DNA of 64,000 nt. Source: Pyronema omphalodes (taxonomy: Eukaryota > Ascomycota > Pezizomycetes > Pezizales > Pyronemataceae). The stretch covers positions 186,001 through 250,000 of the forward strand of contig JAJJXM010000074.1 in NCBI GenBank assembly GCA_024516155.1, given 5' to 3'. The notes under the pieces are model-generated. The model was not told where the DNA came from, searched no databases, and saw only the letters and a list, made by a program, of their open reading frames with translations. The position numbers were made by a program, and so were the translations under genes. This document shows positions 16,673-41,811 of this stretch, piece by piece (the first letter of the stretch is position 1; the number at the start of each line of letters is the position of its first letter).

Positions 16673-16999
16673 CCAGCGAAGCACCAAATGACATCCTTGA
16701 TACTATGGATCTGTCAATAACCCCAAGTACATTCTTCCCTGCCAATAGCTATCCTCATACATATTTCTGCAAGGATTCTCGCAACGACAAATACCCGTGT
16801 TCACCAAAAGAAAGACCAAGATATAAATGAACAATAAGAAAAAGAGAAACAAAGAAAAAAAAACGGAGTAATTCTAAGCCTTCCAGGTATTGCATTCACT
16901 GACACCATTATATCCTCGCATGAGCAAACGATCGGTTTTTCGGTCAGTTGTTCATAATCTGTTGGACCTCACCGGGCAGTATGGAGTTGTCGTGGTGAA

Positions 17000-18117
17000 C
17001 AATAGCTCCAGCAGCAAGGAGTAGTTGCGCAGTCGACTCATTACGTTTCCGATATGCCAGAGACAAAGCGGTAAGCCCCTCATTGTCTATTGAGTTGATA
17101 TCGATACCATCAGCCTGGAGAAGCAGCTTCACAACTGAATTACGACCATTTTGGCATGCCCATGATAATGCAGTTTGGCCGTTCCTGTCCTGGGAGTTGA
17201 TGTCAATACCATCAGTATCGAGCAGCAGCTTCACAACTGAATCATGGCCCCGTTCGGATGCCCACGATAATGCAGTTTGGCCATACCATCTGTCCTTGGA
17301 GTTGATGTCAATACCATCAGCATCGAGGAGCACCTTCACAACTGAATCATATCCACGTCGGGATGCCCATGATAATGCAGTTTGGCCGTTCCTGTCCTTG
17401 GAGTTGATTTCGATACCATCAGCCTCGAGAAGCAGCTTCACAACTGAATCATGGCCATATTCGGATGCCCATGATAATGCGGTTTGGCCGTTCCTGTCCT
17501 GGGAGTTGACGTCGATACCATCAGCCTCGAGAAGCAGCTCCACAACGGAATCATGGCCATTCTGGGATGCCCCTGCTAATGCAGTTCGGCCATAAACCCT
17601 GTCCTTGGAGTTGAGATCGATACCACCCGTATCGAGGAGCAGCTTCACAACAGAATCATGGCCATTTTCGGATGGCAATGATAATGCGGTTTGGCCGTAA
17701 CTGTCCTGGTAGTTGATATCGATACCATCAGCATTGAGGAGCAGCTTCACAACTGAATCATGGCCCTTTTGGGATGCCCATAATAATGCAGTTAGGCCAT
17801 ATTTATCGTCCTTGGAGTCGATGTCGATACCATCAGCATCGAGGAGCAGCTTCACAACTGAATCATGGCCATTTGCGGATGCCGATGATAATGCGGTTTG
17901 GCCATAGTAATAGTCCTTGGAGTTGATGTCGATGCCATCAGCCTTGAGAAGCAGCTTCACAACGGCATCATGGCCATTTTCGGATGCCCATGATAATGCA
18001 GTGCGGTGCGCGAAATCACCCAGATTAACATTGACCCCTCTCTTCAATAGAACTTGCACAATCCCATCATTGCCAACCAACGATGCCTGTAGAAGCATTG
18101 TACTGCCACCCAACGCG
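17000..18117 (-). repeat. Coding ankyrin minisatellite of NLR-1 (11 repeats)
   Basis: Repeats of 34 or 35 codons (102/105 bp) are nearly identical outside a few positions. The core is TALSWASxxGHDSVVKLLLxADGIDINSKD. Variation is concentrated in the helix-1 tail (EN, AN, QK, EY, RR, ER) and the beta-hairpin tip (YYYG, DKYG, SYG, RVYG, RNG, RWYG). High DNA identity between units suggests recent unequal exchange or gene conversion. Confidence 0.85.
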
Positions 18118-20347
18118 AAATCATGATCGATGTTTGGGTTAGATACGTCGAGAAGGATGGTGACGGCATTTTCTAAGCCACAGCTAATGGCAAACTGTAA
18201 ACGAAGATGTATCTGGCTTGTCGGAATGTATTCGTGTTGTTCGTGATACCAGGCACTTCGGTAGTGACGGAACGGAGATAAGAAGTCCGAGCGAAATCCA
18301 GTCGAAATTCGGTTTGGGTTAATGCTATCTGGAAAAAAGGCACAGATCATATCAGGTGTGCAGCTACTCTGGTCGCGTAAGTGGTGCCGAAAGCTTTTGG
18401 CTGCATAATCCAGAAGGCGGTACTTGTCCAGGCGTTTGCGCTTGATGGCCTCAGTGATGTTCGGTTCTGAAGAGTCGATTTCAGATTCATAATCGTTGTA
18501 GGACATGTATTGTAGGCAGGTATATGCCATCTCAGTGTGGCCGTTCCGGAATATTTCGCCGTTGGCATGTAATTGTGTCAGGTGGTCGTGCAGCGATTTA
18601 TGAACAAGACGGGCAGTAGACGTCTCTTCATCTATAACAATCAAACCAAGGCACCAATCTATGATTGATTTCTCGGAGGGGAAGTTTCTCCAGTCGACCG
18701 TCTTATCGTGCAAGATTGTCAGATTTCCAGGTTGCATTGTGCTCGGATCGATCGGGACGGAGAGTGCATGCCGTAGCTCGATCATCGTCAATGGACGCTT
18801 CGCGAGAAACACCCACTTGAGAACGTCCATGGCTTGTTTTGATCTCTGGGATTTCTGGTTCATGATCCTGGTGATTGTACCCTCGAATGCGGCTTCAAGT
18901 TTCTCGGGCATATTACGGAGCGCGTTGCTTCGCATGGTGATAGTTGCCTCGTCCAATACCGTCTGTATCTGCAGCGAGGCCAGTAGGAACCTGCAGTGGA
19001 TGAAAGTATCAGCTGTGCTCCATACCCATCATTCAAAACAACCAACGTCGTTAGTGAAATCACTATCAGCATTTCGGTATCAGTTGAACATTTGAAACGT
19101 ACATTCCGTCAGAATTAGTCACAATCGTATCCAGAATTTCTTTCCTGAGCTCGTCGTCCATACACTCCTTGTTCTTGTCGTGCTCAATCTCATGCGCAAT
19201 ATACATGCGTAAATCCTCTGGGCGTGCCTTCAAACATATGTGGTCCAGAGAGCCGATTCCTTGATTACCAATCATAAGTTCCTCCCACTTGATGTGCGGT
19301 CTTGTCGTAAAGAATATCCGGATTGCATGGAGTTGGCTGCAGTTGCTTGATAACTTTCCGAGTGCTTGTATGAACGTTTCCCGGTGCCCCTCGTCACACT
19401 CATCCAAGGCATCAATGCAGATATAAAACCTTCGAAGCTGCTTGACTGTCTCGCCTAACAATCGACATCCTTCCTCCAAACCAATATGTTTCTGCGCATT
19501 GAGATGCTTCTTCAACGTTGAGATGGTATCTGTGTCTAATAGCCTTGACGAGTTGAGTTGCAGGATGACCTGCTTCAACAGCACGCCAATCATGTTTACC
19601 GGAGTTTGAATCTCATTATTCTGGTAATCACAGTAAAGGCAGGCTACACAAGTTCCTTCTTCGGAGAGAAATCGCTTCTCGAGATAATCGAACACAAGGG
19701 AACTGCGTAATGCAATGTCGGTGAGTTTCGATCCGTAAAAGTCACAGAAATGGCAACATACCAGATGACAGACTTTCCTGCTCCAGGGTCTCCAGAGCCT
19801 GCTAAAACAGGATTGATATTGATATCATGCGATTCGCCTTCGCTCCATTTTCGGAATGCCGGTTCAACGAGAAACCAATTACCTGTACCTTCAAGGCGTT
19901 TCTGGCGGATGTCTTCATGTCTTTTGTGGATTTCTAGCGGCGATATCAATGGCATTATCTCCCGAATCTCAATATCTGTAATCAATTAGTCGGTAGCGCG
20001 GACACTGATTTCTGTGGAGTCACCTTGTAATGTCCCTTGAACGTCACTCACACCGAGTGACATATTGTGGACTTCTTTGACGTTGAGTTGAGCGAGTTCA
20101 GTGACCAGCTTTTTGATCTCCGATATCTCAGCCATTTGCTTTTTCAAATCTTCCGGTACGGAAATGGAGATCCTCTCAAGCGCACTAGCCAGCTTCTCTT
20201 TCTCTTGCCGATTTCCGTCGAGTTGCGAAAGAACGGCTGACGATGTTTGGGACAAAAGCTCACTGTTATGCGTTAGAGCCGGGATGCTTCGCTTGCATTC
20301 CACGTGAATAGACATACTAATTCTTGGTTACCATCGAGAACTGAAAT

Positions 20348-21336
20348 ACACAGACGGGTCATCGAAGGAAGATCAAACAGGGGCTGGAGTCTACATTCCT
20401 CATGGACTCCCGCAAATAATCAAAACCACAATACCGATGGGAGAAACAAGTGAGGTCTATGATGCAGAACTTCGAGCGATACTTGAAGGCCTCGAGAAGG
20501 CTGCATCATTTATCAAGCGACACAAGGCATCCAATCGACATATCTACATCTTTAGTGACAACCAGTCAGCGATCCGTAGGATAAGACACCTCCAAAGGGG
20601 ACCCGGCCAAGATATTGCCCGAAACATCCATGAAATTACGAAAACCCTGATGAAATTCAACACTGAAATAACAATCTCATGGGTACCGGGACACACACAA
20701 ATCCAAGGAAATGAGATAGCAGATGACCTCGCCAAAGCTGCAACCTCTCAGAAACCGGACCGCACACCTGTGGTATCCATCTCCTGGCTGAAAAGACAAA
20801 CCCGAGGCCAGAAACTGAAGGAGTGGAAGGAATGGTACGAACAACAAAAACAGCCAAAAACATACAAATCACCTCATTCAAGACAGCTAGACATTGCATA
20901 CACAAATACCACCCGCAAAATCTCATCAGCCATCCTAGGCCTGAGAACTGGTCATGGATATTTTCTGGATTACCTATCAAAGACGAACTCCGAAAAATAT
21001 CCTTCACCCAGATGCACCTGTCCAATGCAACCCCCACAAACACCCAAACACCTCATCCTAGGCTGCCCAAAATACCAAGTACAGAGGAATAAACTCCGCC
21101 GCGAACTGAAACTTCACAGGAACCACCCTGCACCACTCCAAGTGATACTCCACTCTCCCGATGGAACCAAGGCCCTTACCACTATGATCTCTACTACCAA
21201 GATTGCCACCGCAGAGTGGATACAGGCACAGGTAAGTAATGCTCCCGCTCTGGAAGATGACCCGGAAGGAAGGAGAACAGGCTGGGGAACACTGATCGAA
21301 TCTGAGAACGAGCACGAAGCGGTTCGGAGCGAATAA
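20348..21336 (+). CDS. LINE RNase H domain with C-terminal CCHC knuckle (5'-truncated)
   Basis: The frame is open from the insertion junction to a stop at 21336 (first Met at 20437). Residues that bind metal in RNase H are all present: TDGS, AELRAILEG, FSDNQSAI and the GHTQIQGNEIADDLAKA segment with its His and Asp. A CxC-x9-H-x4-C knuckle (CTCPMQPPQTPKHLILGC) follows, as in Tad1/I-clade ORF2 tails. The coding frame is intact despite truncation, another sign of youth. The fragment lacks reverse transcriptase and endonuclease, so it cannot mobilise on its own. Confidence 0.85.
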
Positions 21337-21348
21337 GACGAATAATGC

Positions 21349-21395
<47 letters not shown>

Positions 21396-21514
21396 CTGAA
21401 GACAGATACATAATTATGTACATAGAGAGCCGAAGAACAGCAAGAGCAAGAAATGGTAGCGCGCGGGAAAGGCAAAAGAGAAGAAGTGAGAGGAAGAAGA
21501 GGACCAGTGTAATT

Positions 21515-21890
21515 GAGCAGAGAAGAGAGGAGAAGAGAGGAGAGGAGCAGAGAGGATTGAAGTAGAGAGGCGAGGAGAGTAGAGGAGAGGCGAGGAGAGA
21601 AGAGGAGCGGCGAGGAGAGAAGAGGAGAGAAGAGGAGAGAAGAGGAGAGAAAAGGAGAGAAGAGGAGAGGCGAGGAGAGAAGAGGAGAGGCGAGGAAGAA
21701 GAGGAGAGGCGAGGAGAGAAGAGGAGAGGCGAGGAGAGAAGAGGAGAGGCGAGGAGAGAAGAGGAGAGGCGAGGAGAGAAGAGGAGAGGCGAGGAGAGAA
21801 GAGGAGAGGCGAGGAGAGAAGAGGAGAGGCGAGGAGAGAAGAGGAGAGGCGAAGAGAGAAGAGGAGAGTTAAGGAGAGCATAGGAAGGCA
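21515..21890. repeat. Purine-rich 20-bp minisatellite in the LINE tail
   Basis: About 15 or more tandem units related to GAGGAGAGGCGAGGAGAGAA; the 21700-21850 part is almost perfect. One strand is pure purine except for the C in GGC, so triplex or polymerase slippage is plausible. It generates long Ser/Leu-Ser-Pro antisense frames that are not genes. Confidence 0.95.
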
Positions 21891-22573
21891 GAGGAGAGCA
21901 GAAGAGAGCAAAGAGAGGGTACGAACAACGAAGTGAGAGGGTAGAGTGAGAGTGCCGGGAGGGAAAAGAGCAAACAGGGCTCCAAAATGTAACGACGAGA
22001 ATGAAAACCAGCAGAAGGAAGAGAGGTGGCAACAGGCCCAAGAAATGAAGTACGCTCTGGGGCGGATCCCAGCGAGACTCCAAGGTAACAGCTGGAGCCT
22101 CGAAATGTAAATAGACTGTAGCATACGTCATAACCTTAAGGTTGGGAACGTTCAAGAAAATCAAATCAAATCAAAATCGAGAACTGAAAAATATGCGTAA
22201 AACGCTGTAGTGCAAATATCGTCTGCTGAACATCGTCCTTCTTGAGCGGCCACCCCATCCGTTTGGCCCATTCTTGCAACTTCCCCTTAGAGAAGGCTTT
22301 CGAAAGATCTGCAAGTTTACCATCAAGTGCCTTCAGTTGGTAGCCACAAGATTCCACTGCATTGAAAAGTACACAGTCTCCATGAAGATCATCCTTCACG
22401 AACTGCGCAAAATTCTCAAGGACCTGGCTCAATGCTTTGACTTCCAGATAAAGGCTCTTTACTTCGCTGGGGGCTGATCGAACACTATCGACGTAGGCTT
22501 TGAGTGTCGTAGCAATCTGACCGGTGAGACTGAGAAAGCCAGCAACGGCCGCCGTGATGCTGAGCGGATCCAT

Positions 22574-23882
22574 AACGCCTCGACAGTGCCGGCAATGTGA
22601 CCAGCCGGAACACCGTAGATGAAGAATACTGATATAAATGATCAACAATGGTCGTTGGTAACGACGGAGAGAGTGAGATGGTAGACCCAAAAAAGCGGGC
22701 GCTACCCCGCATGAACGAAATTCCCAATCCCTGCTGAGGCTCTGCATATACTTATGCAAGTCATGTACGACGGTGTTGGCATATATACGTATCGAACACC
22801 TTCTCGATGCAACAACATACGTGACAACCCCAAAATTTTATCAATTCCACAATAACAAATACACAGGCATATTCCAACTTGACCCTGGATATCTTTAGAT
22901 ACTCGCTTCTAAATGAAGCATCCCATTTTTCTCTTCTATTTGTGTTGTCAATTCGAGTAGCGTACGAGCTGTTTGGTATCGTTCATATATCTTGGTGGCC
23001 TTCCTTGAAACTCCGAACCCAACGACCACCAAGAAAATGGGAAATAGTGCCGTCTGGATCAAAAGACAAAGAGGATGTAATGAATGGTAGCAGGTGCAAA
23101 TCACGCAAAATGCCCGATCATGAGGAGCAGTAGCCGGTGAAGGAAACGGGTTTTTTTTCGCAGTGGGTTAGGGTTTGCCTCGAGTATGGTCTCCAACTCG
23201 ACCGGTTTCGGTACACCGTCAGTGGTGGTCCGTGTACCCTTAAAGTTTCCTTTCAGTACATGATCGTATTCAACAACCGGTGTTTACCCGAGTACGTGTT
23301 GGATGTATGAAATCTGTATCTCGGAATAAGAAAGGTAAAGAGTACTTCCTGCAGCCACGGGTTGTACTCTTGTCTTCATATTCGTAGAATGGCTGGTGTT
23401 GCTATATATAGAATATATACATGTACTGGCATGGGGAACTTTCCAAGTGTCTATGGGGGGTAATAGAACAACGTCAGCATCACTTCTGCGAGAGCAATAC
23501 AAAATCTGAACAAATAAGGGAGTACGTACCCCCTGACAATCCCAGCGCTCCATTCACCTTCTATAGAAAATAGTTTTGCGTAGGAAAATCGGCACTCCCC
23601 TCCATTTCTATGGAGCTACGAAACGTTCAGAAATGATTGATACTTTTTTCATGTATGATGTATGCGAGTCTCCTGCTCTAGGCGTTTGTGCGCTCATTCA
23701 ACTACTAGATACCAAGAGACCTGTCTACAATGAAGCAATAGAGATCTTTGTCAATTATGGCTAACATTGGTGGCCATGGGGATATTTTTCTATTACTCTT
23801 GCTTGTGATACTTCATGTATGCAAACGAAAGAAACCTATACCAGCTTCTGCGTTCTACACATACATCTGCATTCCATATACG
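22574..23882. other. Upstream region of NLR-1
   Basis: The ~15 bases before the NLR-1 ATG match those before NLR-2 (CTGTCGA...GTTATGGATCCGCTCAGC in both), beyond which similarity fades. No other gene; small frames at 22879 and 23576 have no supporting features. Confidence 0.45.
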
Positions 23883-23976
23883 GTACCGTGACAAAAGTGA
23901 CCGTCACTTTTCTGTGCTAAGCGCCGCGCGGGGTGACGGTCACTTTTGTCCAGCACCTCGTACAGTACAAAAAAGT
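23883..23976. mobile_element. Fold-back element copy 1
   Basis: Near-palindrome: GACAAAAGTGACCGTCAC on the left pairs with GTGACGGTCACTTTTGTC on the right around the loop TTTTCTGTGCTAAGCGCCG. The right outer part (CCAGCACCTCGTAC) has lost its left counterpart relative to copy 2. Same orientation and loop as 26256-26342. Confidence 0.8.
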
Positions 23977-24118
23977 TCCATTACATCCCCAAACTCCCAA
24001 CATCAGCTATTAACGTGACCAAAATACTCCCTCTTATAATTTTTCAACCCCCGATACTCGGTTGAAAAAAATCTGTTTGCCTTTTGAATCTTCCTGCATA
24101 TACTTCCTGCAGCATTCT

Positions 24119-24586
24119 ATGCCATCCCATCCCTCTGCATGTCCCTTCCTCCATTTCCATCCTCGCGGTTTACACATCCTCTTCGCAACCACCACCAGCA
24201 GCTACCACGAATATCCAGCATACACTCCTCCGACCTACGTACCTGCAGAGTATTCAACACTCTTCAGCCTACACATAAGAACGTCGCACAAACACCACAA
24301 CGACATCCCACAACCACCACAACCACCACATCCTACAATCACCACAGACCTCGTCCAAGCACCCGCCACACTCGATTGGAGAATGTGCACCAAAACCGCG
24401 CACCTAATGCTCTGTGGCCACTACGAGTACCGTATGAACCTCGACTACCCCTGCCGTATCCGTGGAGCATCGAGAACAAAGGAATGTGAGAATTCTACGA
24501 TTCTTAGAAAAGTTGGCATTACTCGAGAGTGGTTTCATTGCCATGCTTGTAGATGCAGGATTATTGGACCGCCACCGTTTCCTTGA
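24119..24586 (+). CDS. Small Cys/His-containing orphan protein
   Basis: An open frame of 155 residues. The C-terminal 67 residues, from an internal Met at 24383 (MCTKTAHLMLCGHYEYRMN), look like real protein: Cys and His spaced as CxxxxHLMLCGH..C......C.....HCHACRC, reminiscent of small fungal proteins with MCxKxxHxxxCGH starts and possible zinc binding. The N-terminal part is Pro/His/Thr-rich and could be leader DNA; a TATAATTT element near 24034 would suit the upstream start. If 24383 is the true start the product is 67 residues. Function unknown. Confidence 0.45.
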   Translation: MPSHPSACPFLHFHPRGLHILFATTTSSYHEYPAYTPPTYVPAEYSTLFSLHIRTSHKHHNDIPQPPQPPHPTITTDLVQAPATLDWRMCTKTAHLMLCGHYEYRMNLDYPCRIRGASRTKECENSTILRKVGITREWFHCHACRCRIIGPPPFP

Positions 24587-26255
24587 GAGAAGGGGGGGGG
24601 GGGGGGGGGGTTGGAGCGGGGGAATGCCGGGAATACAAATGTGGGACCTTCTAGGGTTCAATTTGGGTTGATTTGATGTTGGTTCATTTTGTTGATGGAA
24701 GTGGTCAGAATCTGATTGTTGGTTGATTGTTGGTGTGTTTGATGGAATGTTTATTTGTTTGCACTGCCGAAAATACGGTTCAAAACGTGATGAGAATTCA
24801 TTTTCTTGACCGCTCCTGTGATATCTCATAACCATATACTGTGTTTTCTCAAGAAACCTCATCTTGCGCCCAGGTGCTACCAAAGATGCGCTTTTGGTGT
24901 TGAGGCCAAGCAGCGTACTCCCCCCTCCCTCCTCCCCCCTACCCCAACCCCGGCGCTGGGATCACATGTAATCACTCACACCGCATCTCTCTCTCCCCCT
25001 CTGTCTTTTTTTCTTCTTTTTTTTATTCATTTTTTATAATGAGAATGGTTTGCTTATCAGTATAAACGCCCCTCAGGTACTGAAATACTGTGATAGACAG
25101 TTTAGCCTATGTGTAGAATTCTTATGCCGCATATTTTGCTACTCTAAACACTCAATTGGGGTCATACAACTGAAATACAATGGTGCTGTATATCCTAGCG
25201 CCATCTGTGAGTAAACCTAGTACTCAAACATCTCATCGCTACAGAGCTTCACTTGACAGTCATCATGCATGAGGGTTGTGTGCCGTAATGTTTTCTAGCT
25301 CTGAGTAATAGATATCATAGTGAGACATGCAACCACTCAGGTTCCTTCTGTAAAAAATGGGAATTAGTCGAGAAATGTACAGTCTTTTCCACGTTTCCGG
25401 ATTCCAATGTAACAACAAAATGCCGCTTGATCAGAAACTAAAATGTACATTCAGAAATGAGAAAGGTCTCATGAAGTATGAATGAGCGACTTTAAATCAC
25501 CGGAAGCACTCCATTCGGTGGAATCCCCTGTATAGTGACGACTTATTAATGCTATTACGATCATCTACTGAGTTAATGATGTACTCGACAGCAAGCTGTA
25601 ACGCTTTGATTGACAGTACTAGCTGCAAGTATTGCGCATTGTATATAAGACGCTTCAGCCTTTACCTATGTGGGAATTGAAAGGACGGAACCTAGCTTCT
25701 AATATATTATATAGGTGCCTGAATAGTTCGTGATATGTGTTTCGGGTGGAAGTGTTCCCCAGTAGCGTCAGCTCGAGTGATGTATAAAAGAACTGTATAA
25801 AACGTGATGCATCAATTGCAATGATTAAATGAGTAATGTCAGAAAGCCGATACTAATACAAGAAACCTCTTGATATATCATTTCTATGTTTCTCGAAGTG
25901 ACAGTGGTATTTTAACCGTGGTCAATCCAGCACACGCTGAAGAAATAAACCCGACAACATAACAAAGTTCAAATCAACTGCAGGTAATAAGACTATTGAT
26001 TCCCAGACCCTAAGTAGAAGCCATCACAGTATAATTTCCTTGTTACGTTTCTTTAATAATACTGACCGAGCCGACATCTGGTTCCAAAAAAAGAAGAAAA
26101 AGAAAACTTAACACACCAAGTTGGCAATTCCAAATTTTCAACAAATACACTCCACACCATCAAATAAACCCCATTTCTAGTATCTCATTTCATTTCCGCA
26201 AATATAAGAACCAAAGCACAAAAGAAAAGTTACAATTTCCACATATTATATACCC
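24587..26255. other. AT-rich intergenic DNA
   Basis: A G-tract at about 24592-24610, then a pyrimidine-rich stretch near 24910-25030 and ~1.2 kb of AT-rich sequence. No coding potential seen. Confidence 0.45.
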
Positions 26256-26342
26256 GTACGAGGTTCTGGACAAAAGTGACCGTCACTTTTCTGTGCTAAG
26301 CGCCGGGCGGGGTGACGATGACTTTTGTCCAGAACCTCGTAC
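26256..26342. mobile_element. Fold-back element copy 2 (complete, 87 bp)
   Basis: Begins GTACGAGGTTCTGGACAAAAG and ends with its exact inverted complement, giving a ~21-bp perfect terminal inverted repeat. Inner arms GTGACCGTCAC / GTGACGATGAC continue the pairing around the same loop as copy 1. At 87 bp it is almost all hairpin. No target duplication could be defined, and the superfamily is unknown. Confidence 0.8.
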
Positions 26343-26641
26343 ACCCACTTCATTTCTTCTAAGAAAACCGTCAAATCAAAACCGTACCCAGAATCAACCT
26401 TGCCGCAGCAAATAAAATCAGCTCCATATTCGCATCCACATCCCAATCACCACATCCGCCATATCACCATACTATCCCCCATATCGGCAGGTTTCCAACG
26501 CCACATCCCCGCATCGCCACATCCCCGTATCGCGTTAATCTCCCCCACATCGGCAGGCTTTTATACGCCACCCGCACCCGCACCATGTATGCATAACACA
26601 TGCGCCATACCCGAGATCATATCAAGATTTCGCTTATGTAT

Positions 26642-26867
26642 ATGCGTAACTGGAGGACTTCCCATCGCTCTATAGCAACGAATGGGAGAGCCTATTTCGC
26701 CACAAAAAAATATTTTCTATAGAACGCGAATACAGCACTAGGATAGACAGGGGGGTAGGTACCCCCCTGTCTATTCGGATTTTCTATTGCTATCGTATAT
26801 ATAGGTGAAGTTGGGGTTTTTCTATCCGCCCCCCTAATAGAGCGATGGGAGGTCCTCCACTACGCAT
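26642..26867. mobile_element. 226-bp inverted-repeat element (MITE)
   Basis: Terminal inverted repeats of ~30 bp: ATGCGTAACTGGAGGACTTC at the left and, inverted at the right, ATGCGTAGTGGAGGACCTCC, both running on into CCATCGCTCTAT. The centre has a perfect palindrome GACAGGGGGGTA|GGTACCCCCCTGTC (about 26748-26773). If the outer TA is the target duplication, the element is 26649-26860 and Tc1/mariner-like; this is not certain. No ORF. Confidence 0.7.
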
Positions 26868-27584
26868 CAAAGCTGAATATCTATACTGCACTACAAATAC
26901 ACCTATATACACTCATCTACACCACCTCCACATGCTAAACATTTGCTCTGTTCTGTTCTGCTCCGGTCGTGTTGGGTCGGGTTGGGTGCACTGTTTCAAT
27001 CTCTAGTTTTTACATAGTGATCCGGAAATGCTAGGCGAACCATGGCGATCTGGGGTAAGTGTCTTATACATAGTGTCCCTAGTTTGAAATTGGTGCACTC
27101 GGCAAAAGAGGTGGGTGTGCGTATGCAGGTATATAAATATATATACAACCGTTAGATGACAATGCCGATCCACATATGTCAAGACAAAAAAGGGGGAGGT
27201 CTAGGCGTTCCGAGTTCGGGTGGATTACTCTTATTCCGGGTGTGAGGGAGTTGAGTAAGTAAAGTAATCATTTTAGAAAAGCACAACTCCGGGAGAACGG
27301 GATTTACAGAGAGGGACATATAGAGATAGAGAGGGAATGTAATTTTTGAAAATAAACTTGATTAGTTATTATTGATTATTATTATTCTTTCCTCGTTCTT
27401 GACATACGGTAAGTTCCAAGGGAGCATCAAAATCATCGCTCAAAACGCCGTTGAACTTTTTCAAGCATACATGCAACTACAAAGTGGGTATCTTTAAAGT
27501 ATCTACAACATCGCAGCCATCCATCTCTGGATAGCAGTGACTGAAAAAATCACATCCCAAACTTAATACAATCAAGTATCAAGC
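26868..27584. other. Intergenic
   Basis: 3' flank of the minus-strand secreted-protein gene. AT-rich, no gene seen. Confidence 0.4.
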
Positions 27585-28676
27585 TTACGCCTTCTTGATC
27601 TCCCATCCACAAGTTCCCGGTCCAGCCATGGAGTCGACATCCGCAGAACCACTGGTAATGGTAACACTGGGCTTATCCTTGACACACTCCTTGCTTCTGG
27701 CGGGGTTAACAATAATCATACAAGCATCTGCGAATCTCCAGAAACCACATCCCATTCCGGACTCGGCACACTTGTTGCAGCAGTCAATGGGGGAAGAAAT
27801 ATCCCAATCAATGACATATGCATCCTGACCAACGGGGTGAGAGAACTTGTACTGCTCAACTGAGGTGGCAATGTCTCCCTGGCCGGTGAAGTCACGGCAC
27901 AAAGCATTACCAGTGGTCAACTTCTGACCGGCAACAAAAGTGTGGTCGGTGGCGTTACGGCGAGTGAGAGAAGGGGAGGACTGCTCCTCAAGCTCGGGCT
28001 GAGACTGGGGCTCGACAGCAGCGGACATGGTTCCCTCGTCGGAGGAGGCAGAACCGGATCCGGAGGAGGGAGTAGGAGTGACGGTTGTGGTGACAGTGAC
28101 GACTGTGGGGACGGTAACAGTGGTAGTAGCAACACCTTGCGTAATGGTCTTCGCAGGACGGGTCAAGGTGCTGGTCACGGTGGTGACGGAGGAACGCTCC
28201 TTGACGAGGGTGCGACAGGCCTCGCGGATGAGTCCTTCAGCGAATTCCTTAAGGTAGTCGGGGCGCTCAGGGTGCTCAAGAACCGTCGCATAATCGTCGT
28301 CGTCTTCCATACCAGTAATATTGGCGTCCAAGGGGTCCCATTCGCGGCGGCGGAGCTTGGGAGCGGCGGTGATAGTGGCAGTGACAGTTGAAGTCGAGGG
28401 GATCTCAATGGTGCGGGTGGAACGGTTGACGGTGGTGGTGGGGCCGTCGATGAGGGAGGTCTTGATGCGGGTGCGGATTACAGGGGGAAGGTAGTTGCGG
28501 CACCAGCGCTCATCATCGTTATCCCAAATTAACTGAGCAACTTTGTCAACTGGAGGAGAGTATTAGTTATCTGCTTCTTCAAAATGTGTAAACGGACACG
28601 AACCATCATCAAGTTGGGAGGTCGCGGCTGCAAAACCGGAAATAGCGAGCGTTGATAGTAGGTAGATGAAACGCAT
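27585..28676 (-). CDS. Secreted Thr-rich protein with a PAN/Apple-like Cys domain
   Basis: Exon 1 is 28676-28604 and exon 2 is 28549-27585; the 54-bp intron (GTTCGT donor, CTAATAC branch, CCAG acceptor) joins in frame to give 345 residues. Residues 1-20 are a signal peptide (MRFIYLLSTLAISGFAAATS). The middle holds two Thr/Val/Ser-rich blocks (TVTSTLTRPAK, VTVTTTVTPT) likely O-glycosylated. The C-terminal ~110 residues carry eight Cys in a pattern (C...CCNKC...GCGFWRF..ACMI...C...C) like PAN/Apple modules, which bind carbohydrate or protein. No GPI signal or transmembrane segment follows, so it should be extracellular or wall-trapped. Similar Thr-rich/PAN-like secreted proteins occur in many ascomycetes; the precise role is unknown. 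Confidence 0.85.
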
Positions 28677-31364
28677 ATTGATTGAAGAGCGTTAAAAGAG
28701 TGTGTATATCCGTAAAAGAGTGTATATGATAATGTGGCTGAGTTGATGGGGTGAAGCACCTGAACAGCGAAACTCGGGATGTGGCTGGCTACTTATTTCA
28801 TGGACATGGCGGACTGAGCGTTTTGGCGAATGCTTGTTTGTTCTCGGACATTGAGGGGAGGTTCGAGAATAGTAGAGAATTGGGGTGGTGGAGTCTTTGG
28901 ATAGTTGAGGTTGTTTGTTCCGGCGTCCATCATGGGGATGGAGTGTTTGGGGTGAGTCCCCGAGCGAGCCGGCGCGCCTAGTTCAAGACTCCTCAGTCTC
29001 TTGGAGGAGGCCCAAACTTTGATTACTCGCGTCAGCCAACTTGGCGCGAACGCCGTGCTGTTGCGTGCGCATCCATCTGGTACCAGGTTTCCAATGAGCA
29101 GTAACTGAAAATATGTGCCGAAATATAGAAACTTCTTTAATACTCGTGAGTTTTTAATCAGCATGGGTTTGCAGAGGCTGGATGCATGTATACAGCCCCC
29201 GTATTTCACCTGACATTCTCCCCAGAAGACAAGGGGTAAGGTCTGTGCTACCCATCCAGCAAGCTCGGATCTCTCATGGCACCGGCCCGGTGTTGAGAGG
29301 TCTCAGTAAGATTATGGGATGCCAGAAACGTGTGGTGATCACCCGTGAACACGCGCAGAACGCACAGAGGGACGCGTCGGGTACCTGGTTAGCGTAACGT
29401 CTCGGTGGATCCCGAAAATAGGAGCACACGTGTGGGATGACATTGTAGCATCGACAGGACCAGATCGACAGTGTAGAAGAAGTGATTATCGTTGATGAAG
29501 AGAAGCTGTCAAGAACTTGGCTCAGGACGATTGCGCAATGGAAACGCTGAAGTTTGTGGCGATGGCGAAAGGAGGTGGAGGTCCCTTTCACTTGGCAGGG
29601 ATTTGTGCGCTATTTCTGAATTAGGTATTTCAGGGCTGATCTGGTAAGTGGGGCCGGCGCCAATCGCGTGTCCGCCCGCCATCCGCTAAAGTCGCTGCAA
29701 GCAGAGCGTCACTTTCCATCTTTACTATCTAATCTAATCTGATTAATCAGTTCTCGCTTCCTCCCCGCGTCTGAACCTGAAGTTACGACTGCACCCACGT
29801 GCACGCCTCGAGTTTTTCAACTCTGTCATATTCAAGCTTATAGTTCTTTTTTAAGCCAATAAGTATTTATATCTCGTTCGAATCATAGCAGAATGTACTG
29901 ACATCTTACGATTAGCAATCTCCACAATCCGAGCGCGCCGTAGATCGATAAAAAATCGCCGGCACTGATCTCCGCGACGAAATGCGAACTGTCCCTGCCC
30001 ACCATTCTAGACTGACCGGTGATATGCTTGTAACTCACACTATCCATTGCATTGGAGATCGTTGACTGTCCGTATGAGACAGAGAACGAAGCTAAACGCT
30101 GAGATTGAGTCATCTTGGTAAGTACTCTATTCTACCACCGCTTTATTAGGCATCAAATCGTATCTCGTTAGGTGTTCCTTCAAGTATAAGGGCTAGAATG
30201 ATACAATGAATGTTTTGAAGTTACCGTGAGGTTCTCGGCTACCTCAATCTAGTTTGTATGAGAGTGATATGGCATGGTTCGCCAGCTTGCTAGCACTGAG
30301 GTTCGGTCTTTTTTACTCAGCTCGCCAGGTCTACCACCTTAAACAGAACGCATTCAACACTTCATTAATAATATTGGTTATCATTATTGGTATTTCAAAT
30401 TCCTCATGCTTTGTTATTAAACGGTAATGTTTTGCGCATTGAATTCTTTTACTGTGCTCATTCTTCTAATAACCATCCGCACAGTCTATTCAATATCGCT
30501 TTTCCACATTCTTTCGAATGAATTTCATCTCTAATACACCGCTTTACCGAGACAAGAGGCGAATGTTCCGAAATTCCTGGAACATGTATAGTCCCTAAGT
30601 CTGGGGGACTGCAACCCAACGATAACCCATGAAATTTGACGCCGGCTTTTCACCAAAATTGATGAAAGCGCGCATCTAGTAGAAAGAGACCCTCCACTTG
30701 CTGGACTGTACGATTTTCTACCGTAATAACGCAAGACTATTGCCATATCTAGCAAAAGAATTCGTCACTACCTTATAACTTTCAAAACATTCGTAGCTCG
30801 ACTACTAAGTTGATCCAGAATGCAGTGCCGCTAAGCTCTATAAAGCATTAATAATGGTAATTATGGTTAAAAGGCAACCAAGCGAAAGTATATACTGGCA
30901 GGGGTGTGCTTTTTTTCTATGGCCGTGTGGATGGCTTGGCTCTGTCTGTCATATTCCATGCACGTGAATGGTTTCTTCCAGAGATTGAATATGAAAGATT
31001 GAATATGATCACCATTCTCCACCTCCACAGCGTTCATTTTTCAACGGAAATGACAACGTTTGTCTCTGTACGACATGAGGTTTTTCCTAGCTCCTTGTTG
31101 TCGTGAAACTGACGGATATGGGACTTGTCACACAACAGTACACTGCTTTGTCGACATTGTTTCACACGACATGCATAAACCACAGAGCCTCACCGGAGAT
31201 CAGCAACGTGGACATGCGGGGTTGCGCCCGCTCTTTAAGGTCTAACATCGCGCCATTTCTTTGGTTACCGGACGACTACCATCGTCTTCCGCTGCAATAT
31301 CGATATTCTTGATATCCACGGTGTTTCTTGTCTACCGCTGCACCCGAACTGTCGACGATTTGTT
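28677..31364. other. Gene-free interval between the secreted protein and NLR-2
   Basis: About 2.7 kb with no recognisable gene. The 28.9-29.7 kb part is more GC-rich than its surroundings and the rest is AT-rich. Short frames at 29182, 29274 and 31060 lack domains, splice logic or composition typical of protein. Confidence 0.45.
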
Positions 31365-34300
31365 ATGGATCCGCTCAGCATCGCTGCGGCCGTCGCTGGC
31401 TTTCTTAGCCTTGCCGACCAAATCGCTACGACATTAAAAGAATACGCCGATGAAGTTAAATCAGCCCCCGCCGAAGTTCAAAGCCTTCATCAGGAAGTCA
31501 TAGCCTTGCGCCAAGTCCTTGAGGATTTTGTGGGGTTCTTACGGGAGACTAACCTTTCGGGATGCAAATTTGAGAGCTCATCTGCGCTTTTCAAGGCAGT
31601 TGAAGCTTGTCAATACCAGCTGAAGAAGCTTTGGGGAAGACTGGCAGATATTTCAGAGGCCTGCTCGAGTAAAAAGTTGTCAGGATTGGTTACCCGAGTG
31701 AGATGGCCGCTGAAGAAGGACGAGGTCCAACAGACGATAGTTACGGTACAGCGTTTCGCGCAGATATTTCAATTACGATGGTGATCAAGAACTAGTATGT
31801 GCATACACATCGAACTGACTCGAAAGGACACGCTTCTGACACTTAGTAGCCAGCTCATGTTCCGAACATCCTCAGACGTGATTTTGCAGCTCAACGAGAA
31901 CCGACAAGAAATAGAGATTTTCGTCACTAAACTCAACGCCCTGTCGTTTCAAGTGCCTGTAGAGTTGCATCAGAAAATTACCAATGTATTGGAGATTAGT
32001 ACTGTGGTTGCCGAACTGGCCCAATTCAACATAGAAGAAGTCCACAGGATCTCACTCGGTATGAGCGGGTTTCAAGAAAGAATACTAGGTGGCTCCACCG
32101 CAACCATGGACCGTGCTACCGACTAACAGGATGCAGATAATGAGATTCGACAGATAATGCCTTTAATATCACAGCTAGAGCCGCATCAAAGACATCAAGA
32201 TATCCGGCAAAAACGACTGGCAGGCACGGGTAACTGGTTTCTACACCAACCGTCATTCCAGACATGGAGCAAAGGTGAATCGCATGATGTTGGTATGAAT
32301 GCTGTTCTTGCATGCTCTGGAATTCCTGGTGCCGGCAAGTCTGTCATCTGGTGCGTTGTTAGTCCGGTGCGTTTCACGGATAAAAACTTACCGACATTCC
32401 GTTACGCAGTTCCCTCGTGTTTGATTATCTCGAGACACAATTTCTCTCCGACGCAACAGTTTGTGTAGCCTGCCTCTACTGTGACTACCAAAACGATAAA
32501 AACCAAACTCCCGTGAACATGATTGGCGTGCTTCTGAAGCAGGTCATCTTGAAACTCAACAAATCGAGGTTTTTACATGCAGATACCATCTCAACACTGA
32601 AAGAGCATCTTAACGCAAACAGAAGAATTGATCTTGAGGAGGGGTGTCGATTGTTAGGGGAGACCGTCAAGCAGCTGCAAAAGTTCTATATTTGCATTGA
32701 TGCGTTTGACGAGAGCAACGAACGGCACCGGGAAGTTTTCATACAAGCCCTAGCAAAGATATCCCAGGAATGTAGCCAACCGAACAAAGTCCGCATATTC
32801 ATCACGGGTAGACCGCACATGAAGTGGAAGGAACTTGTGAAGCGTAATCCAGGAATCGGCTCTCTGGACCACATGTGTTTGAAAGCACACCCCGATGATA
32901 TAAGGATATATATTACCCATGAGATTGCCGTTGATGACAATAGCGAGTGTATGGATGAAGAGCTCAGGAGCGAAATTCTGGATACGATTGTGGCTAATTC
33001 CGACGGGATGTGAGTTTCCAAGCCCCTTAGTAACGCCGAGGTTTCAGTCACGGACGCATTGAATGCCATTGATTATCTTGAATGATCGTTATACAAGTCA
33101 GCTGACACCGTTGTTCAATGCAGGTTTCTACTGGCTGCACTGCAAATACAAACGGTGTTAGACGAGACAACCATCAGCACACGAAGCAACGCCCTCCATA
33201 ATATGCCCACGAAACTTGAAACTGCTTTTGAGAGCACAATCATCAGGATTCGAAACCAAAAATTTCAGAGATCTAAGCAAGCAATGGATGTCCTCAAATG
33301 GGTATTCCTCTCAAGACGCCCATTAACGATTACTGAGCTACGCCATGCCCTCTCAGTTACCATTGAGCCCAACAAACTTCAAACTGGACCGCTTCCCCTT
33401 TCGTACGATAAGACAGTCAACTGGAGAAATTTTCCTTCAGAAAAATCACTGATAGATTGGTGCCTGGGCCTCGTCATTATTGACGAAGAGACGTCTACTG
33501 TCCGTCTTGTTCATAAATCACTACACGAATACCTAACGCAGTTACATGAGGATGGCATGATATTCCTTGACGGCCACAGTGAGATAGCGTACACGTGTCT
33601 ACAATATATGTGCTTCAACGATGATCGAACTCAAATACGTGCGACAGCATCAAAAGTGACTAAGGATATCATAGATATACGCCGAGAGAGGTTCTGTCTT
33701 CTGGATTATGCAGTCACAAACTTCGAAAACCACTTATACGACGAGAATAGCTGCACGGCTGATATGATATCTGGTTTATTCCGAGATCTAATTAATCCGA
33801 ATCGTATTTCGACTGGATTGCGTTCAACGTTTTTATCCCCGTTTGGTGGCATGTTCATGAATCCCCGCGGTGATAAACATGAGTACATTTCTGCAAGCCA
33901 GATTTATCTTCGCTTACAGTTTGCTATCAGCTGTGGTTTCGAAAACACTTTCAGAAGGCTCCTTACAGGATTAGACCGGACCATTGATTATAACACCGAA
34001 TTAGGCGGTAGTACAATGCTGTTACAGGCGTCCAGGGTTGGGAAGGAAGGAATTGTGGATATTCTGCTGCAGGCTAGCATTAATGTTAACCTAGCTGATG
34101 CTAGGCGACGGACCGCGTTATCATGGGCGTCCCTATACGGACATGATTCTGTCGTGAAGCTCCTCCTCCATGCCGATGGTATCGACATCAACTCGAGGGA
34201 CGATTACGGCCAGACTGCTTTGTCTTGGGCATACCGCAAAAGCCACCATTCAGTGATGAGGCTGCTCATACAGGCTGATGGCATGGACATCAACTCAAGG

Positions 34301-35953
34301 GACGATTACGGCGAGACTGCCCTGTCATTGGCATCCAAAAATGGCCACGACTCAGTTGTAAGGCTGCTGCTTCAGGCGCGCGGTATTGACATCAACCTGA
34401 AAGACGAATCTGGCAAGACTCCGTTGTTATGGGCATCACGGTACGGCCACGATTTGGTTGTAAAGCAACTCCTCCAGGCTGAGAGTATCGACATCAATTT
34501 GAAGGACAACAGCAGCCGCACTGCTTTACTAATGGCATACGAAAATGGACACAATTCAGTTATGGAGCTCCTTGTCCGGGATGATGGCTTTGACATTCAC
34601 TCAAATCACGGTGACAGTCAAATAGTGTTGTCATGGGCATCCCGATACGGCCACGATTCGGTTGTGAAGCGATTCCTCCTGGCTAAGGGTGTCGACATCA
34701 ACTGGCAGGACAAAGATGGTCAGACTGCGTTATTGTGGGCATCTCAAAACGGGCACTATTCAATTGTGCAGCGGCTTCTAAAGACTGATGGTATCGACCT
34801 CAACTCGAAGGACAGACATGGTAACACTGCTTTGTTGTGGGCATCCAGAAAAGCTCATGATCCGGTTGTTCAGCTGCTCCTCCAGGCTGACGGAATTGAC
34901 ATTAACTGCAAGGATGAGTACGGCCGCACTGCTCTTGCATGGGCATCGTACAACGGCCGGGGTTTTCTTGTGGAGCTCTTCCTCCGAGCTCATGGTATCG
35001 AAATCAACTCGAAGGACAAGTATGGCCGCACCGCGTTGTCGTGGGCATCCTATAACGGCCGCGATTCAGTTGTGGAGCTGCTCATCCAGGCTAGTGATAT
35101 CGACATCAATTCCAAGGACTGTACCGGTCTAACAGCATTCTCGTCGGCAGCCAAGAACGGACACGATTCGGTTGTGAAGCAACTCCTACATACCAACGGT
35201 ATTGACGTCAACACGAAAGACAAAAATGGTCTGTCGGCGTTATCAAGGGCATCCGTTAACGGCCGTACTTCAGTCGTGAAGCTGCTTCTTGGAGCTCGTG
35301 ATGTCGACATCAATTTGACTGACGAATATGGACGCATTGCCTTGTTATGGGCGTCTAAAGAAGGATTCGAACCAGTTGTGCGACTTCTCCTCCAGGCCAA
35401 CGGTATCAACATTAACTCGAAGGACTATAATGGCCGTAGTGCGTTGATATGGGCATCGAAAGAGGGGTTTGATCCAGTTGTGCAACTGCTCATCGAGGCT
35501 GATGGTATCGATATCAACTCGAAGGATAATGATGGTCGCAGTGCGTTGCTGTGGGCATCGGAAGAAGGTTACGGTCAAGTCGTAGAGCTGCTCCTCCAGA
35601 CTCATGATATCGATATCAACCTGCAAGACAAACATGGTCGCACTGCGTTACTATGGGCATCCAGGTACTGCCGCAAGTCAGTTGTAAAGCTTCTCCTACA
35701 GGCTGATCATATTGACATCAACTTGAGGGATACCAATGACCGCACTGCCCTACTATGGGCATCCCGATACGGCCACGATTCAGTTGTTAAGATGCTCCTC
35801 CAGGCTAATGGTATCGACATTAATGCCAAGGACAAAAGTGGACGAACTTCATTGTCACTGGCTTTACAAGAAAGTCATGACAGCATTGCTCAACTACTCC
35901 TCGCTGCTGGGGCTACCGGCGGACACCAGAAGAAGGTTAAAGGGACCGGTTAA
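31365..35953 (+). CDS. NLR-2: HeLo-like/NACHT/ankyrin STAND receptor (possible frameshift)
   Basis: Exons 31365-31780, 31847-32088, 32137-32350, 32410-33009, 33124-35953 give 1433 residues. Exons 3 and 4 have exactly the lengths of those in NLR-1 (214 and 600 bp). Order: HeLo-like domain (1-138), linker helices, NACHT with Walker A GIPGAGKS (~283-289) and Walker B FYICIDAFDE (~383-393), winged-helix-like region, 19 ankyrin repeats (~784-1423). Compared with NLR-1 one base is missing near 31775. The donor conserved in both genes (TAGTATGT at 31793) is therefore out of frame and behind a TGA at 31782. The model survives only by using GTGATC at 31781. Several other donors are weak too (GTGGCT, GTGCGT). 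It is either functional with an altered junction or an early pseudogene. The likely role is non-self recognition and cell death, inferred from family. Confidence 0.82.
34003..35920 (+). repeat. Coding ankyrin array of NLR-2 (19 repeats)
   Basis: Nineteen 34-codon (102-bp) units of the form TALLWASxxGHDSVVKLLLQADGIDINxKDxxG. They are more diverged from each other than those of NLR-1, with some degenerate units (repeat 6, DIHSNHGDSQIVLSWA). All units stay exactly 34 codons, whereas NLR-1 alternates 34 and 35. Confidence 0.85.
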
Positions 35954-36865: not shown

Positions 36866-37970
36866 CAGACCTCCCAATCGTACAAACCAGTTTAAAATGA
36901 CGGCCAAAACGGACTGTACGGACTGTTGGAATATGATAACTGTACGGCGACCCAGTTCAGTTTATTGTCACTAATATAAACTGGTTAAACTGCGAAAACC
37001 AGTTAACTGAATGCAAGGCTTGGCAAACCAGGTGAACTGTTTAAAACTGCCAAAACTGGTTTGTCCAGAGGAACTGATTTATGAGGGGGCAATAAATATT
37101 GTTAAGTGCATACATAACAAAATCCGATCCTAATTTGGTCCCGAGAAATAACAACTGACGCCTACGATTGAAGCTCTTGAGCCCCTCAATGCCCTCCAGA
37201 GTGTCTGCCTGCATCGAATGAAGGTCCGATATAATGATTTTCTTGCATTCGAAAAGCAGCCGCTCGGGCTCGGCGCTCATTGCGGGAATAGACAGCAGTA
37301 CTTCAACAGCCGTTTTGCAAATTTTGGGGAACCTGGCCCGCTGCCGGGGCTCACACCACCACTCAATGGCAGAAGGACCATCCCCAAGTGCTGCCTCCAG
37401 TCTCAGCGCACAGTAATCAACATACTCGTCTGGCTGCATGGGGCTGCCTGTTGCCGTATCTTCAGAGCCTTGTTGGGGTTCTAGCGGGGTATTGAAGCTA
37501 GGTGGTATAGAGGAGAGGCCGCTGGTAACGGAACTCATTGTAGGTGGTTGGAGAGGAATGGCAGTGTAAGATATGGTTGAGTTCTGTAGGTCAAGAGAAA
37601 ATAGTCTAGGCGAGATATATAGGAGAATCCAGGGCAGCAGAGGTGCGTTCAAACGAGGTTTCGGTACAATATTTGCATCGGTTTGGCTGTCTATGATCCT
37701 CCATGCATGGGTTTGGCTGTTTATTCTTCTGCGCAGTAGTCAACGAGGTGGTTAAACTGGTTTGTATTTGCCAACCAGTAAACTGTTTACCGAGTCAGTT
37801 CAATCAGTTCAATCAGTGCAGTGCAGTTACCTGGTTCTATGGAACCCTCAAAACTGAACCAACTGCGTATCCGGGACACCAAAACTGCACCAACTAACTG
37901 TGAATTATCAGTTCAGTTTACCTGGTTTACGATTTTACCCGGTAAACTGGCTATACGGTTGGGAGGTCTG
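36866..37970 (-). mobile_element. hAT-type deletion derivative, 1105 bp, with perfect 8-bp target duplication
   Basis: Terminal inverted repeats start CAGACCTCCCAAtCGTA and, at the other end, CAGACCTCCCAAcCGTA (then AGCCAGTTTA / AACCAGTTTA). The flanks are an identical TCCTCATC at 36858-36865 and 37971-37978, the 8-bp duplication typical of hAT elements. Many subterminal AACCAGTT/AACTGGTT motifs lie near both ends, as expected of transposase binding sites. Only the C-terminal part of a transposase remains inside, so the copy needs help to move. Confidence 0.92.
37041..37538 (-). CDS. hAT transposase C-terminal (dimerisation) fragment
   Basis: A 165-residue frame starting MSSVTSG (an upstream in-frame Met at 37652 would give 203). 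The segment WWCEPRQRARFPKICKTAVE...LSIPAMSAEPERLLFECKKII is the conserved hATC dimerisation region (usual 'W..n...yp.l...a.d.Lsipassa.sERvFS'). The DDE catalytic domain and BED zinc finger are absent, leaving an orphan dimerisation module behind a Ser/Pro/Gln-rich leader. If expressed it might heterodimerise with full-length hAT transposases. More simply, it is a remnant of internal deletion. Confidence 0.7.
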   Translation of the reverse strand: MSSVTSGLSSIPPSFNTPLEPQQGSEDTATGSPMQPDEYVDYCALRLEAALGDGPSAIEWWCEPRQRARFPKICKTAVEVLLSIPAMSAEPERLLFECKKIIISDLHSMQADTLEGIEGLKSFNRRRQLLFLGTKLGSDFVMYALNNIYCPLINQFLWTNQFWQF

Positions 37971-39679: not shown

Positions 39680-41811
39680 TTAAGCATGCGGATCGTTCAA
39701 CGACACCTCCTTAACCCTGCCATTGAAATCCGACTGCGGCAACATGTTCAACGCATCCTCCTCCTTATCAATCCTCCTATTCTGCATCCAGAAAGCAATA
39801 CCTCCAAGGAACGCAATGACCGCAACAACTCCATAGTTCCAGATCAACAGCGGGTCTTCAGCAAGAGTAACAAGTGCTTGGCCTAGTGCTGAACTAATAG
39901 CTGACATGAACAAAAAGATGGCGGTAACAAGAGATCGCATGTTACGGGGTGCTTTGGTGAAGGCGTATTCGAGGCCGGTAATGGAGGCGAAGATCTCCGA
40001 GAAGGCGATCAAAACTGACGGAGTTAGCTGCAAGGCTCGGCAGGATTATATAGCGTCGCGAGGTACGATGGACGTGACCCAGGGAAGGATAACTTACTGT
40101 ATGCTCCAGTCTGCACCCACACGTTGATTGGCGCTGGTTGGTCTTTACATTTGTTTGCATGATCACCACAAGGGTTCTTTTTGTAAACATAGTACTGAGT
40201 AACGCAGGCCCAAATCATCGCCAAACAACCCATCATGAATCCCATTGTAATTCTCTTGAGGGGGGTAAAGTTGATCTTGGCCTTGCGAAGGGCAGGGTAA
40301 ATCCACTGATCAACGATGGGGATAAAGATGATGAGTGATAGAGGGTTGAGGTTGGAGAGAATGTCATTGGGAATTCCGTGGAGCTCCATAGTTGCAGCCT
40401 GAGAGGTCAAGTTGTTGGTCATTTGGTTGTATGCAAGCCCTATTACAATTGGTAAGTTATATCTTCTCGTTATAAATATCATATACGCAAACTTACAGTA
40501 AAGAGGATACCACAAAAATACTTTGCATGCGTACAAACCACGACGGACTTGGTCAACCCACTCATCGTCGAAGGTCATCCAAGCGGGTCTTTCCGCAGCA
40601 GGGATATTGCTAGGCTTTACACGCTCCCAGAAATCATCGGCGTGCATGTTGTGGTAAGTGGTAACGGGGTTGATAGACCAGCGGCCACGCATTGCCATTC
40701 CCCAGAGCTTCATTGACTTGGTAGTCACGGAACCAGTCGGGGGCGATTTCTCGTACTTGTTGCGACAGATGTACATGATCATTGGGCAGAAGAGGAAAAG
40801 AAGAGTTGGCAGAGTGTAGGAGAGCCAGAAACCAACGTATTTCTGTAGGAATCGCAAGTCAACAAAAATTCTTACACCGAGAAACAACAAAACTTACCTC
40901 GGCGTAAACCATTCCTACGGATCCGCATAAAGCGCCAATATTAATCATCATGTAGAAATACATGTAAATTCTTGAGACGGTCAAAGTTGGGTCCAAAATA
41001 ACTCTCTCCCCAGAAGGCAAAGTCTTGACTTGCAGAGTAACCTGCTTGTACTGCTCTGCGATCAACGGGGAGATGTTGGATTTGAAACCTCCGACACCAA
41101 TACCCATGATTACCAAACCGATGGAAAAGCAGGTAATTGAATTTGTGGGATGAGTAATAATGGACGGAATTGCGGAAAGGATCAGGATGATGTGTCCGAC
41201 GATGGCGACACCGATGGCTACCATGATGGTCTTGTAACGACCCCAGTATTCGTCAGCCATGTAGGCTCCGAGCAATGGCATGACATATGCCCAGAAGGCA
41301 TTGACTGGTGGATTGTGAGTACAGTACTACAGAATACGAGTAGATAGACTTACAGGTAGTTAGACCAGTCGAAGCTCTTTGACCCATTCCGAGAGCTCCA
41401 GATTGATTCTCGAATCCCGCTCCAGTTCTAGATCCATCCGGAAGTGGTTGCTGAATAAAGTTGACGACTATTCACATCCACATCAGTCTCATTCTCTCTC
41501 CACAGCTTGTCGGACAGGCGCAACTTACAAACCGCGGTAGTTCCATAGTACGAGAATCGCTCACACAACTCGACTACTGCAACAGTATATGCCGTCCACG
41601 GAACCTTTCCAGAAACCCTTCTCAATGTTTGAAGTTCAACTTCCGTAGGTTGTTCATCACTGATATTGCCATCGCTTCCCGTCTTCTGGTATGCCGGTAG
41701 ATGCTCCTCGCGCTGGATCTTCTCGGCCAATAGTTCCTTCTCTTTATCCACGACTGGTGGATCGTGGGCTTTGGCGACCTCGACGGCCTCGACAACGCCT
41801 CCTGTGTTCAT
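39680..41811 (-). CDS. PTR2: PTR2-type proton-coupled di-/tripeptide transporter
   Basis: Six exons (41811-41529, 41467-41354, 41304-40898, 40842-40497, 40439-40098, 40014-39680) give 608 residues; every junction closes in phase with GTAAGT-type donors. POT/PTR hallmarks are present: ExxER as ELCERFSYYG (~82-91), which couples proton to substrate; FVNFIQQPLP; the signature AYMADEYWGRYKTI; YFYMMINIGAL; and AFSEIFASITGLEYAFTKAP near the end. About 12 hydrophobic segments fit a plasma-membrane major-facilitator fold. The first ~75 residues are hydrophilic and acidic, the usual cytosolic N terminus. An upstream in-frame Met at 41865 would add 18 residues; 41811 (MNTGGVVEAVEVAKA) is preferred as more typical. 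The protein imports small peptides as nitrogen source. It looks fully intact. Confidence 0.94.

Follow-up and report, generated by a model that had tools for sequence, protein, structure and literature searches.

Why should two neighbouring NLR genes of a fungus both be broken close to the end of their first exon, while everything downstream of the break can still be read in either gene? The question is raised by genes M and P of Pyronema omphalodes (Table 1), which lie in the window analysed here, that is, the whole 64,000-nucleotide stretch of DNA, corresponding to C205:186001-250000 in our contig numbering. The initial annotation described two divergent receptors of HeLo-like/NACHT/ankyrin build some 8.8 kb apart, and this description holds: the genes start at 22573 and 31365, and the domains are matched in both. 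At the N-terminus, PF17111 (called HeLo-like in PMC9815663 and PigL_N in the Pfam copy that we used) scores 39.1 bits in M and 30.3 bits in P (cut-off 27.2). It is followed by a NACHT-type NTPase, matched by NPHP3_N (PF24883, cut-off 24.8) at 100 bits in M and 105.7 bits in P, with the Walker A motifs GDPGAGKS and GIPGAGKS, respectively, and by C-terminal repeats matched by Ank_2 at 322 bits in M and, over the first 918 aa of exons 2-5, at 182 bits in P. As had also been claimed, the introns (four in each gene) occupy identical positions, and they share their phases, and exons 2-5 of both M and P are open as far as the final stop. We propose that birth-and-death turnover of a large, diversifying fungal NLR cluster probably explains both losses.

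Table 1. Features of genes M and P and of the contig around them. Positions are those of the window, except for the partial NACHT copies, which are given in positions of contig C205.
Feature	Position	Strand	Remarks
Gene M, HeLo-like/NACHT/ankyrin NLR, five exons	16944..22573	-	LINE splits exon 1; from ORFs, splice sites and Pfam PF17111, PF24883, Ank
M exon 1, left piece	22176..22573	-	HeLo-like domain; open frame of 135 aa ending three codons past the LINE junction
M exon 1, right piece	20318..20346	-	the other target-duplication copy and the 15 nt between it and the donor
M exon 2	20024..20262	-	
M exon 3	19762..19975	-	contains the GDPGAGKS P-loop
M exon 4	19103..19702	-	NACHT
M exon 5	16944..18990	-	9 similar ankyrin repeats of 34/35 aa, degenerate first unit, cap
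M upstream region	22590..23243	-	homologous to DNA upstream of seven other array genes
LINE, 5'-truncated	20347..22175	+	about 1.8 kb; RNase H end of pol frame (to 21336; RNase_H PF00075), A-run, GAGA-rich stretch, TCAAA tail
Target-site duplication	20333-20346 and 22176-22189	.	two identical 14-mers flanking the LINE
Gene P, HeLo-like/NACHT/ankyrin NLR, five exons	31365..35953	+	exon 1 short by one base
P exon 1	31365..31794	+	frame break near 31774/31775, stop at 31782-31784, open frame of 139 aa
P exon 2	31847..32088	+	
P exon 3	32137..32350	+	contains the GIPGAGKS P-loop
P exon 4	32410..33009	+	NACHT
P exon 5	33124..35953	+	17 ankyrin repeats, less alike than those of the array genes, and cap
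Partial NACHT copies, C205	93389-93832, 106336-106665, 109062-109223, 121103-121273, 132277-132735, 166278-166721, 179115-179576		

The break in M is, as originally read, the work of a LINE, which sits between the two copies of a 14-bp target duplication; the duplicated target corresponds to the nucleotides 15-28 nt 5' of the exon 1 donor. The insert is a 5'-truncated element, since a longer genomic copy (L010) runs on upstream into a reverse transcriptase domain, with RVT_1 ahead of RNase_H in the same frame. In this arrangement, and in its 5' truncation, target-site duplication and short-repeat tail, the element resembles non-LTR retrotransposons that combine a reverse transcriptase with a C-terminal RNase H, and it may be Tad1/I-like. 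Its 3' region (window 21352-22130) passes from a long A-run through a GAGA-rich stretch to the TCAAA tail, a layout shared by L010; the GAGA-rich region may be unusual. The element has at least 50 matches in the genome, counted as matches and not as genes. Over its first 1000 bases it differs at one position from each of two copies (L010 and L011), and over its 229-base tail at none, and such near-identical copies point to recent activity. Given this near-identity and a Ks of 0.122 between M and its sister L043, the loss of M is very recent relative to the history of the gene. Changes private to M ahead of the ankyrins number 44 replacement and 20 silent, against 39 and 26 in L043, when L047 serves as outgroup; with L044 instead, the counts are 47 and 23 for M and 31 and 21 for L043. 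The counts with L044 tend to show more replacement change in M, which we do not take as a sign of long relaxation.

For P, the initial annotation had placed the loss of a base at the exon-1 splice donor. The gap lies instead about 20 nt upstream (the alignment fixes its place to within a base or two), and the donor itself (GTATGT at 31795) is intact, so that splice donor loss is rejected in favour of a break of the reading frame shortly before exon 1 ends. The conserved length at this site is kept by all 22 relatives that were fetched and by the right-hand piece of M, and the break is private to P among the 24 members compared. It is conceivable that the base is missing only through an error of assembly or sequencing, or that its lack is bypassed through alternative splicing, in which case only M would truly be broken. 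Such an explanation is in keeping with a single private base in a gene that is otherwise open, and a native, if weak, GT...AG pair (GT at 31781) could hold the frame in some transcripts. Nonetheless we regard it as distinctly unlikely, as the gap site is no homopolymer and exon phases agree in 22 of 22 fetched members, from which P differs solely by the missing base; 21 of these 22 are stop-free in exons 1-4, the exception being L058 with a stop in exon 3 (compensating indels would be missed in this count). Exons 2-5 are free of any further lesion in M and in P, and neutral change since the loss is thereby limited to at most about 0.4-1.2%, depending on the indel rates assumed. The youth of the LINE, the private break in P and the lack of further damage to these exons bear out the claim of recent, independent loss, best supported for M.

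M and P had further been regarded as a paralogous head-to-head pair. They are indeed divergent neighbours of one family, but they are not closest relatives, and contig C205 carries seven more full-length genes of the family besides them, nine in all. In a tree of 24 members (built from exons 2-4 together with the first part of exon 5, stops being entered as X, and with 200 bootstrap trees), L043 is the sister of M (96/93) within a group of eight C205 genes (100/100), and P falls outside the clade made up of these eight genes and L053 (100/99). The exact position of P beyond that clade is weakly supported (85/80), all nine C205 genes are recovered as one group in 0% of the 200 bootstrap trees, and L059, which is out of frame past its break, forms a long branch. 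The Ks between M and P is 0.948. Since the sister of M is L043 and P is distant by both Ks and tree, the two genes are neighbours and not a recent duplicate pair. The DNA upstream of M has its match ahead of the seven other genes of the array and, on other contigs, ahead of some further members of the family; the DNA before P holds no match to it, and a shared bidirectional promoter is rejected on this ground. A functional head-to-head pair of M and P is thus not supported, to judge from the phylogeny and from the upstream DNA of M. The head-to-head NLR pairs described from plants and from fungi are likewise divergent neighbours, but M and P differ from them in lying 8.8 kb apart, in not being sisters and in that the upstream DNA of M is common to the array. 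Such pairs are rare in a survey of Sordariales, which counts 13 of them among 225 two-gene clusters (PMC12258605).

The DNA around the two genes holds several other features. A 325-codon open frame between M and P (window 27585-28562) has no Pfam match. A short palindromic, MITE-like element lies at window 23880-23965, with a diverged copy at about 26260-26340. Among the best 40 of 141 candidate copies, the window's own copy included, identity is 100% throughout the 84-86 bp aligned, which is striking given their spread across many contigs. A Copia-type gag frame (window 4708-5460) and a frame with a hAT dimerisation domain (37044-37739) are further pieces of mobile elements around the array, and other frames of the window carry cytochrome P450 (8444-9478), PTR2 transporter (40027-40893) and fungal rhodopsin (55901-56623) domains.

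M belongs to an array, and the array to a large family. Across the genome (60.8 Mb in 232 contigs), at least 144 matches to M exon 5, at least 83 to P exon 1 and at least 98 to P exon 4 were found, these being matches rather than genes and lower bounds throughout. The nine full-length family genes of C205 comprise M, P and seven genes on the plus strand (L043-L049), and these seven are open, leaving M and P as the only broken ones. The same contig holds at least seven partial NACHT matches, four of them with an in-frame TGA. Each of six partial copies precedes the NACHT exon of a full-length array gene by about 3.6-4.8 kb, a layout that looks as if the duplicating unit were a relic plus a gene. 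Nine full-length genes exceed the clusters of three to five NLRs, 47 in number, that are the largest reported in the Sordariales survey (PMC12258605), although that survey, unlike our count, takes account of the non-NLR genes lying in between. The gene models are independently backed, as spliced models of L046 (990 aa), L051 (1007 aa) and L054 (737 aa) match annotated P. omphalodes BZA77DRAFT proteins at 100%; the L052 model matches a BZA77 protein (P0044) at 97% over 491 aa, and we attribute this difference to another way of modelling the gene. Among the matches listed, the nearest proteins of P. domesticum show 64-66% identity. Very similar family members are also seen about 9-20 kb from the contig start on C6, C77, C119, C136 and C140, and these members near contig ends are perhaps subtelomeric or unresolved duplicates.

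Broken copies are not confined to M and P. The 22 other members were fetched as strong exon-1 matches and are not a random sample; members outside this set include C206:99529, C206:42526, C200:598715 and copies on C77, C119 and C136. The natural end is reached in 18 of the 22. L058, L059 and L064 are broken earlier than the last repeat, and L051 has a stop within its last repeat, beyond which half a repeat is legible and at which the annotated protein ends too. This brings the lesions to 4 of 22 or, with M and P, to 6 of 24, one of them very late. The downstream search for ankyrins covered 137-900 nt per gene and missed the half repeat past the L051 stop. L065 has matches for exons 1-2 and for ankyrins, and no NACHT match within the 3 kb read. 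Among the unfetched members, the NACHT match on C119 is in two pieces, and C200:598715 carries an in-frame TAG in its exon-1 match, so the true broken share may be higher; given the sampling, our figure is probably too low.

The sensor repeats of the array change quickly. L044, L045, L046 and L049 differ by a Ks of only 0.00-0.009 before the ankyrins, yet they carry 9, 5, 4 and 5 full repeats, respectively. One 87-nt repeat is identical between M and L044, and another between L043 and L046. The ankyrin repeats of the array diversify at three positions: at positions 9, 10 and 21, pN is 0.42 and pS 0.14, against 0.08 and 0.21 at the other positions (64 different repeats of eight array genes, cut automatically, with the degenerate first unit and the last unit left out). 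This agrees with an earlier report that ankyrin repeats in fungal NLRs evolve under positive selection (PMC4986451). The array genes resemble the ANK-repeat NLRs of high internal conservation (Dyrka et al., 2014, PMC4986451) in their tripartite order and conserved repeats. By our own measure (29 residues per repeat), the mean amino-acid identity between repeats is 0.74-0.84 in the array genes, which is near but below the mark of 85% over at least 100 aa used there, and it is 0.54 in P. An identity of 85% is reached by some pairs of repeats in the array genes, with 2 of 45 in M, and by 0 of 153 pairs in P. The repeats of P being less alike, homogenisation of the array type is not seen in P.

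Turnover of the cluster would account for these observations as follows. Members of the family combine an effector (HeLo-like, with four predicted helices), a switch (NACHT) and a sensor (the ankyrin array). By analogy with the HeLo and HeLo-like NLRs already known, binding of a ligand by the ankyrins would make the NACHT domain oligomerise and release a membrane-attacking effector, leading to cell death. The sensor repeats of the array shift rapidly in number and sequence; the array itself would duplicate, and copies that are surplus or harmful would die. M is a member that a young LINE broke very recently, and P is an older, separate lineage adjoining the array that lost one base in exon 1. 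No special selection for loss would presumably be needed. We favour turnover because nine full-length genes and at least seven partial NACHT matches share one contig, because lesions (a stop or a broken frame) affect 4 of the 22 members read besides M and P, and because near-identical array genes differ in repeat number and their repeat positions diversify. RIP was rejected as a cause of the breaks, as the composite RIP indices are negative for M, P and the LINE; little RIP was found in P. confluens (PMC3778014).

The initial annotation had considered a balanced allorecognition locus, at which M and/or P would be kept in the population as functional and as null alleles. The LINE is young enough to segregate, and the diversifying change in the sensor repeats of the array would suit such a locus. 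Even so, this scenario is unlikely: M has open close sisters in the array, so that its loss does not make a strain null for the family, and loss is common, as is evident from relics and from the other broken members. Turnover is better supported than balanced null alleles. Turnover has difficulties of its own. M and P are the only broken genes among the nine full-length ones on C205, and two adjacent breaks in one 14-nt homologous stretch are unlikely to arise by chance.

Both breaks fall within this single stretch, which is the 14-nt LINE target in M and its homologue in P, directly past the fourth predicted helix of the effector domain. A second random break would come to lie within 5-10 nt of the first with a probability of about 0.003-0.006, a post hoc figure that assumes 3600 coding bases. 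A preferred LINE target was rejected as the cause of both breaks, since the flanks of the other copies listed share no recognisable motif; one group of copies has a common flank, which stems from later duplication. The predicted model of the 139-aa exon-1 frame of P (pLDDT 72.7) contains four helices (3-30, 36-61, 74-101 and 118-138). Plant CC domains and the executioner domain of MLKL are among the structures that match it best, but unrelated bundles score equally high; HET-S and other fungal HeLo structures are absent among the best 50 matches listed. By analogy with the HeLo-like family, the PF17111 domain may kill by membrane attack. One could imagine selection to silence a self-harming receptor, with the copies being autoactive or mismatched and their loss favoured. 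A death-type effector domain, as judged from the family, and two recent losses in neighbouring genes at the boundary of effector and switch would be in line with this. We nevertheless hold it to be very improbable, because the seven other full-length copies of C205 stay open and because M and P have different sensors and an old split.

The site of the breaks also invites the thought that they make effector-only genes, and that the family may use, and repeatedly fix, a receptor-free form of the executioner or a decoy. The short HeLo-like frames left by the breaks resemble the product that most members would yield on retention of intron 1, since in 14 of the 22 fetched relatives such retention would bring a stop exactly at the junction. 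The short proteins of 135 aa (M) and 139 aa (P) are entries in the protein collection that we searched (P0148 and P0151), where some similar short entries look like unspliced predictions. We give this proposal very little chance of being right.

Turnover of the kind favoured here has a counterpart in the NWD/HNWD genes of Podospora anserina (het-d, het-e, hnwd and nwdp), which likewise carry near-identical sensor repeats, variable in number, on NACHT receptors and show repeat exchange and diversifying selection at a few repeat positions (PMC1805685, PMC12222747). Active and pseudogene members occur together there as well (PMC1805685), and one pseudogene of the reference strain lacks stops in other strains (PMC1805685, PMC12222747). 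The systems differ in that the Podospora genes have WD40 in place of ankyrin repeats and, in the HNWD genes, a HET effector. They also differ in that two of the Podospora pseudogenes were made by RIP, whereas in Pyronema a LINE insertion makes up one of the breaks and the indices for RIP are negative. Our literature search found no paper that joins Pyronema with NLRs; for Pyronema together with NACHT and ankyrin, the sole Pyronema paper among the matches listed was the 2013 genome paper, which discusses HET-domain genes. If the proposal of effector-only genes were true, the breaks would show receptor and executioner parting company. On the reading that we prefer, turnover of the cluster, the locus would present an NLR array of a Pezizomycete in which duplication, fast change of sensor repeats and fresh gene death are seen side by side.
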